From: Rhodospirillaceae bacterium
GTDB lineage: Bacteria; Pseudomonadota; Alphaproteobacteria; Rhodospirillales; Rhodospirillaceae
Reading direction: 5' to 3'
DNA length: 64,000 nt
Assembly: GCA_029245025.1 (NCBI GenBank)
Contig: JAQWQC010000031.1
Coordinates: 62,001-126,000 of the forward strand
The notes beneath the pieces were generated by a model that worked only from the letters and a program-made list of their open reading frames with translations, did no database searches and was not told where the DNA came from. This document shows, piece by piece, positions 15,790 through 29,207 of this stretch (its first letter is position 1; every line of letters begins with the position of its first letter). Made by a program: the position numbers and the translations under genes.

Positions 15790-16182
<393 letters not shown>

Positions 16183-28167: not shown

Positions 28168-28761
28168 TTACTTATTTCTAAAAGCGTCAAGAGTGACAAT
28201 CTTACCTGACTCATCTTCGTCGCTTGCGTCTGGTTCGGGTTCTTCGAATTGAGTAGATTCGTTACGAATCCGCTGGTTGGTTTTCAATTTCTGAGTAACG
28301 ACAGAATTGCCGACCGGTGGCATTTCAAAATCATCATCTTCATCGAATTCATCGCCGTCCATATCGGACTCGTCTTCGTCTTCAAACTCAACATGGAACT
28401 GAAGACCGAATTTTGCGTGCGGGTCTGCAAACGCAGTAACAGCTGCAAATGGGATGTGAAGCGGCTGGCTGGCTCCGTTAAAGCTCAATGTAATATCAAA
28501 GCTGTCGTCTCCGACGTTCAAATCCCGGAATTGGTGTTGAAGAATAATGGTCATTTCGCTGGGGTGCATTGCGTGCAGCGAGTCAGCGATACGAACGCCG
28601 GGGTACGTAGTGTCAAAGGTGATATAAAAGTGGTGCGAACCTGGCAGGCCCTGCGCCTGTGTAATTTCTAACGCCTGCCGTAAAACGCCGCGCAGGGCGT
28701 CTTCCACCATTCGTTCATAGATCAGAGTTGTTACTAGCGGTTCGGTCACGGTCACAGTCAT
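28168..28761 (-). CDS. sspB: SspB-type ClpXP specificity factor
   Basis: Adaptor that tethers ssrA-tagged proteins to ClpXP. The product from the ATG at 28761 is 197 aa: an N-terminal fold with YERMVEDALRGVLRQALE and HHFYITFDT, then an acidic linker (DEDESDMDGDEFDEDDDFE) and a conserved basic C-terminal tail ending IVTLDAFRNK, which in this family docks on ClpX. An in-frame GTG at 28785 is possible. Neither start has a clear ribosome site. ssrA lies directly upstream on the same strand. Confidence 0.88.
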   Translation of the reverse strand: MTVTVTEPLVTTLIYERMVEDALRGVLRQALEITQAQGLPGSHHFYITFDTTYPGVRIADSLHAMHPSEMTIILQHQFRDLNVGDDSFDITLSFNGASQPLHIPFAAVTAFADPHAKFGLQFHVEFEDEDESDMDGDEFDEDDDFEMPPVGNSVVTQKLKTNQRIRNESTQFEEPEPDASDEDESGKIVTLDAFRNK

Positions 28762-28861
28762 GTGATTGGAGAAAAAAAATAACACCCCATTTTGGAGGTC
28801 GGATACATTGGGTTCAATGCCAAAACCATCTTTTTTGAAGTTACGGGGTTAAATATGAGAG

Positions 28862-29146
28862 CCGGAGAAAGTGAGGGGCTTCTGTTGCCCGGTGCCCCCC
28901 GAACCGCGCTTACCGGCAATTAAGCGGCAGCGGCGTACTCAACGTTGTCGTTGGCACTTTTCAAAATGGCCCGATAACGGCGGAACCATGCCGAGTACAG
29001 CTACTATCTTTACCACGCGCGTCGATCCTATTTCGCCCCCATAGACGGCCCGATTCTGGCCGGAAATGGTGGAGGCGCCGGGTACTGCCCCCGGGTCCGC
29101 GGCGCTTATTCCATAGCAGGTTTAGCACCATAGTCGCCGAAGCGAC
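28862..29146 (-). ncRNA. ssrA: Permuted two-piece tmRNA (alpha-type)
   Basis: Rescues stalled ribosomes and adds a degradation tag. On the minus strand the gene begins with the acceptor piece: a UUCG-capped hairpin near 29140 and a T-arm-like hairpin (stem CCGGG/CCCGG, loop GGCAGTA) ending CGCCTCCACCA, CCA at 29069-29067. A 26-base internal spacer (29066-29041) follows, then the coding piece starting GGGGGCG at 29040, which pairs with CGCCTCC as a 7-bp acceptor stem. The resume codon GCC is at 28955 and the stop TAA at 28920, encoding ANDNVEYAAAA. Pseudoknot-like helices follow (GGGGC / GCCCC). The outer ends are estimates. Confidence 0.93.
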
Positions 29147-29152
29147 CTGTCT

Positions 29153-29181
29153 AATATAGGGCGTATGGGTAACATTTGCCA
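29153..29181 (-). promoter_or_regulatory. Candidate ssrA promoter
   Basis: TATATT at 29158-29153 on the minus strand lies about 8 bases ahead of the apparent start of the tmRNA acceptor piece. A weak -35, TGGCAA, sits 17 bases further up (29181-29176). The -10 placement fits the RNA start, the -35 match is poor. Confidence 0.35.
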
Positions 29182-29207
29182 TGTTTAGAAAGATTCTTTA
29201 GTCAGGG

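Follow-up and report, generated by a model that had tools for sequence, protein, structure and literature searches.

Two-piece tmRNAs such as that of Caulobacter, to which the Rfam models RF01849 (alpha_tmRNA) and RF04321 (tmRNA_permuted) belong, have a permuted gene order, an encoded CCA, a GGCRGTA T-loop, and a tag that starts with ANDN. In known systems, the adaptor SspB binds the N-terminal half of the tag. A search of the open-access literature for tag peptides of permuted alphaproteobacterial tmRNAs found none, and likewise found none of the peptides ANDNVEYAAAA, ANDNVAYAAAA, ANDNVELAAAA, and ANDNVEYAA. Supplementary tables and tmRNA databases were outside the scope of that search, so these tags may nevertheless have been published. 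As for their fate, a passage of one review (PMC8012679) states that ClpXP, ClpAP, and Lon recognize the tmRNA tag, and that ClpXP takes alanine tails at the C terminus as a signal for degradation.

The window analyzed here, a stretch of 64,000 nucleotides from a Rhodospirillaceae bacterium, carries a gene of the same design. It is a real, ordinary split ssrA of alphaproteobacteria and confirms a standard ribosome-rescue gene. With a probability of about 97%, we regard it as the ssrA of this cell in its circularly permuted form, most likely in working order. Its features and the neighboring adaptor gene are as follows.

28870 to 29185, minus strand: permuted tmRNA gene (ssrA), the whole alpha_tmRNA model including the 5' leader (RF01849; ARAGORN tmRNA*).
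28920 to 29129, minus strand: tRNA-like domain through the tag stop (RF04321, tmRNA_permuted).
29067 to 29094, minus strand: 3' part of the acceptor piece, with T-arm, acceptor 3' strand CGCCUCC, discriminator A, and CCA (read from the sequence; geometry rederived by script, locus L001).
29041 to 29066, minus strand: intervening spacer of 26 bases, presumably removed in the mature two-piece RNA, as in known permuted tmRNAs.
29034 to 29040, minus strand: 5' acceptor strand of the coding piece, GGGGGCG, whose third base pairs with U.
28920 to 28955, minus strand: tag reading frame ANDNVEYAAAA and TAA (read from the sequence; ARAGORN).
28168 to 28785, minus strand: sspB, alphaproteobacterial SspB adaptor (PF04386, E = 1.5e-44; PDB 2qas, 2nys, 2qaz).

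The alpha_tmRNA model matches over its full length (1 to 355 of 355) at positions 29185 to 28870 with 260.1 bits (E = 1.7e-74; gathering cutoff, 50 bits), and tmRNA_permuted does so (1 to 213 of 213) at 29129 to 28920 with 150.7 bits (E = 7e-30; cutoff, 47 bits). ARAGORN also finds a permuted tmRNA at the locus, with the tag ANDNVEYAAAA. An initial annotation, made from the letters of the window, had proposed a two-piece permuted tmRNA with exactly this tag and had held that the lack of a tmRNA model match would speak against it; Rfam and ARAGORN both side with the proposal, the alpha_tmRNA and tmRNA_permuted scores lying far above their cutoffs. The limits given for the gene, 28862 to 29146, were nearly right but slightly off, as the alpha model extends from 28870 up to 29185 and takes in a 5' leader. 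Compared with the consensus of that model, the stretch 3' of the tag stop is shorter in this gene; in a single-strand fold, the 3' segment from 28919 to 28863 folds no better than its own shuffles (z = 0.23).

On the minus strand, the CCA-bearing acceptor piece precedes the coding piece, with complementary acceptor strands on either side of the short spacer. The T-arm at 29094 to 29078 consists of the stem CCGGG, the loop GGCAGTA, and the stem CCCGG, and is followed by the acceptor 3' strand (29077 to 29071), the discriminator A (29070), and the encoded CCA (29069 to 29067). Placement of the CCA, of the 26-base spacer, and of the coding piece's 5' end at 29040 in the initial annotation agrees with this reading. 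The acceptor stem that it called perfect does form seven pairs, but six of these are Watson-Crick and the third is G-U, which makes the stem perfect only if wobble counts. We take this third-pair G-U to be the pair by which AlaRS identifies its substrate, and its presence fits charging with alanine.

The remark that the T-loop is not tRNA-like was correct, but the loop is no oddity. The loop of the window gene is also that of the Rfam alpha_tmRNA consensus, and the form GGCRGTR occurs in 217 of the 219 loci with one readable T-arm (GGCGGTA, 94; GGCAGTA, 90; GGCAGTG, 33; other, 2), out of 242 loci searched, some of which are the same contigs taken twice. For the script to count a T-arm, a 5-pair T-stem had to be followed by an acceptor strand with CCA and then by a 5' strand able to pair with it; GG at the start and G-T as the third pair were also required, while the loop sequence was left unconstrained. 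Among the 23 loci without a single T-arm, one gave several candidates and 22 gave none; 16 of the latter are SspB loci in which ARAGORN likewise found no tmRNA, and the remaining 6 have an ARAGORN tmRNA that the rule missed. The spacer varies between 26 and 42 bases among the seven AAAA loci with a T-arm among those listed (L001, L023, L025, L029, L030, L061, and L062).

The tag frame (GCC AAC GAC AAC GTT GAG TAC GCC GCT GCC GCT TAA) is open from the resume codon, ends in -AA, and closes with TAA. For comparison, tags were collected from 161 genomes: 57 with a match among 61 searched at the order level and 104 more from a search of the class (385 genomes searched, 352 matches, 349 genomes with a match), these 104 being additional to the order-level set. 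The 104 that were read come from the better-scoring matches listed, with some passed over, which biases the class sample toward high scores. Of the 161 genomes, 149 received a tag from ARAGORN, and 35 of these 149 belong to the window's own, overrepresented family; the other 12 were read by an ANDN-like motif, which by construction finds only such starts, and all end in LAA, VAA, IAA, or MAA.

Every one of the 149 ARAGORN tags from this class and order sample ends in AA, a putative degradation signal by analogy with known tags. The ANDN start, which had been called usual, is found in 144 of them. The window tag had also been called short; this did not hold, as its eleven codons fall within the range of 10 to 12 that covers 133 of the 149. 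At the third residue from the end, it has alanine (32 tags) rather than the commoner leucine (67) or valine (41) of its RF01849/RF04321 relatives; isoleucine (3), methionine (3), glutamine (2), and arginine (1) make up the rest. The full AAAA end occurs in 21 of the 149 tags, of which 17 are from the 35 of its own family, one each from families f2 and f17, and two from f91. This amounts to 4 of the 81 families with tags read, or 8 of 81 when every AAA end is counted. Among the 114 genomes from other families, 4 have AAAA and 8 have AAA. Judged by these tags, the AAAA end is common near the window genome and rare elsewhere.

Within the genus, all seven genomes examined have an alpha_tmRNA match and an AAAA tag, ending in VEYAAAA in four and VAYAAAA in three. 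The six besides the window genome use the same frame, where a different frame in relatives had been named as grounds for giving up the reading. Tags of the type ANDNV(E/A)YAAAA or ANDNVELAAAA are carried by the tmRNAs of the genus (L023, L025, L026, L029, L061, and L062) and of further family members (L065, L069, L081, and L083; L030, L067, L070, L074, L075, and L077), and differ from the window tag in one or two mid-tag residues. The last alanine codons vary synonymously among the AAAA genomes of the family (GCG GCC, GCG GCG, GCT GCA) with alanine kept, as expected if the tag peptide matters; within the genus, they are invariant. What had been flagged as an odd four-alanine end is thus a lineage trait. 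An end common to the genus and several relatives is variation within a known family and no surprise.

Other tag forms were seen in the same collection. A 15-residue tag, ANDNVALVEDVRLAA or ANDNVALVSDVRLAA, is found in L018, L027, L066, L072, L167-L187, and L189, and L080 has the longer 15-residue tag ANDNVALVENVRLAA. ARAGORN gave unusually long tags for L157 (1-601) and L145 (1-601), of 25 and 20 residues, respectively; the 25-residue tag may be a misread frame. Nine records (L171, L173, L174, L175, L177, L180, L181, L183, and L187) are titled Candidatus Marinimicrobia, yet carry an alphaproteobacterial ssrA and sspB and are probably mislabeled MAGs. The named relatives with the greatest identity at the SspB locus (best 80 of 87 retained) are MAGs assigned to Rhodospirillaceae or Alphaproteobacteria, which makes an uncultured Rhodospirillales-like alphaproteobacterium the probable source of the window.

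The remaining parts of a trans-translation system are present in the same genome. It is 98% complete and contains a single alpha_tmRNA match, one smpB (TIGR00086, 180.8 bits against a cutoff of 119.1), and one clpX above the cutoff (TIGR00382, 658.2 bits, with five weaker matches below it), alongside the SspB adaptor (PF04386). The ClpX ORF retains GYVG and RKHP, presumably the motifs that contact the substrate. An overlap of the AAAA end with alanine tails made by RqcH was also considered; NFACT_N (PF05833) has no match in this 98% complete genome, which hence shows no sign of RqcH alanine tailing. Rfam further places a bacterial class A RNase P RNA in the window at 15792 to 16181 on the minus strand (326.8 bits); RNase P is, we assume, the enzyme that trims the 5' ends of the tmRNA pieces. 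Transcription signals near ssrA match weak patterns, with one promoter-like site (shuffle mean, 0.7) and two overlapping terminator-like sites (shuffle mean, 0.6). A weakly matching terminator-like hairpin and T run at 28784 to 28799 on the minus strand, between ssrA and the likely start of sspB, may end the tmRNA transcript.

The sspB gene is next downstream of ssrA on the same strand, followed by a fumarase gene, with thyA on the other side of ssrA on the plus strand. Its true start is more likely the ATG at 28761, judging from the ORF. The folded domain of its product matches the SspB-alpha structures 2qas, 2nys, and 2qaz (phmmer E = 2.2e-31 to 1.8e-29), and a C-terminal LDAFRxK stretch of 2nys aligns as well, although not significantly when taken alone (i-Evalue, 48). 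Unlike these structures, the window SspB has, as the ORF reads, a long acidic linker from the folded domain to the C-terminal end. In all 32 order-level loci with flanks read (the 30 best scoring and two more of the genus), the 1.5 kb downstream of the tmRNA contain an SspB ORF on its strand. For the whole flank set, the count is 49 of 62; all 13 misses come from the class sample, and in three of these (L047, L053, and L057) a contig end truncates the locus.

The initial annotation suggested that the pairing of tag and local SspB may show adapted recognition. More broadly, SspB and/or ClpX of this lineage might have changed to read AAAA, altering the choice of protease or its rate. Conservation of the end in all seven genus genomes examined and the synonymous codon changes among AAAA relatives would agree with this, as would the presence of the longer tag ANDNVALVEDVRLAA in close relatives, from which it follows that tag ends do switch. 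Likewise, given the alanine-tail signal described in the cited passage (PMC8012679), the AAAA end can be expected to act as a degron. However, the N-terminal half of the tag, where SspB would bind, is the common ANDN, ClpX keeps both motifs, and AAAA recurs in three other families. On a tree of 99 distinct SspB rows from 129 loci with an SspB core (identical rows and rows without an ARAGORN tag dropped), the 9 rows with AAAA require 3 changes and are scattered among rows whose tags end in VRLAA, AVAA, or RAAA, several long branches being flagged; the sister group of the genus carries ANDNVALVEDVRLAA. With only 3 changes and such interleaving, the switches are too few to claim that SspB and the tag changed together. 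Adapted recognition by the local SspB thus finds no support here, and we consider a degron of this adapted kind improbable. A reading in which this is a decayed or relocated copy and the real tmRNA lies elsewhere is hardly credible against a full-length match that is the only alpha_tmRNA match in a 98% complete genome and that has a counterpart in each genus genome examined, and we found no point in its favor.

We therefore return to a working permuted ssrA. By analogy with known tmRNAs, tRNA-processing enzymes would trim the transcript into two pieces, the acceptor piece with its terminal CCA and the coding piece, which would be held together by base pairing and charged with alanine. With SmpB, the tmRNA would enter stalled ribosomes and rescue them, and the nascent chain would gain A-ANDNVEYAAAA; the tagged chain would be degraded mostly by ClpXP, aided by the SspB encoded next door. 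The AAAA end would then be this lineage's version of the usual -xAA end.

In conclusion, the locus leaves current knowledge unchanged. It is conceivable, if improbable, that the tag end of this Rhodospirillales-like family switches between a short all-alanine form and a longer one such as VALVEDVRLAA beside a conserved sspB, and that the all-alanine form alters the destruction rate or the protease. The tags do provide a natural series of degron ends (AAAA, RAAA, AVAA, and RLAA), all accompanied by the same adaptor gene, on which a simple degradation assay could draw.
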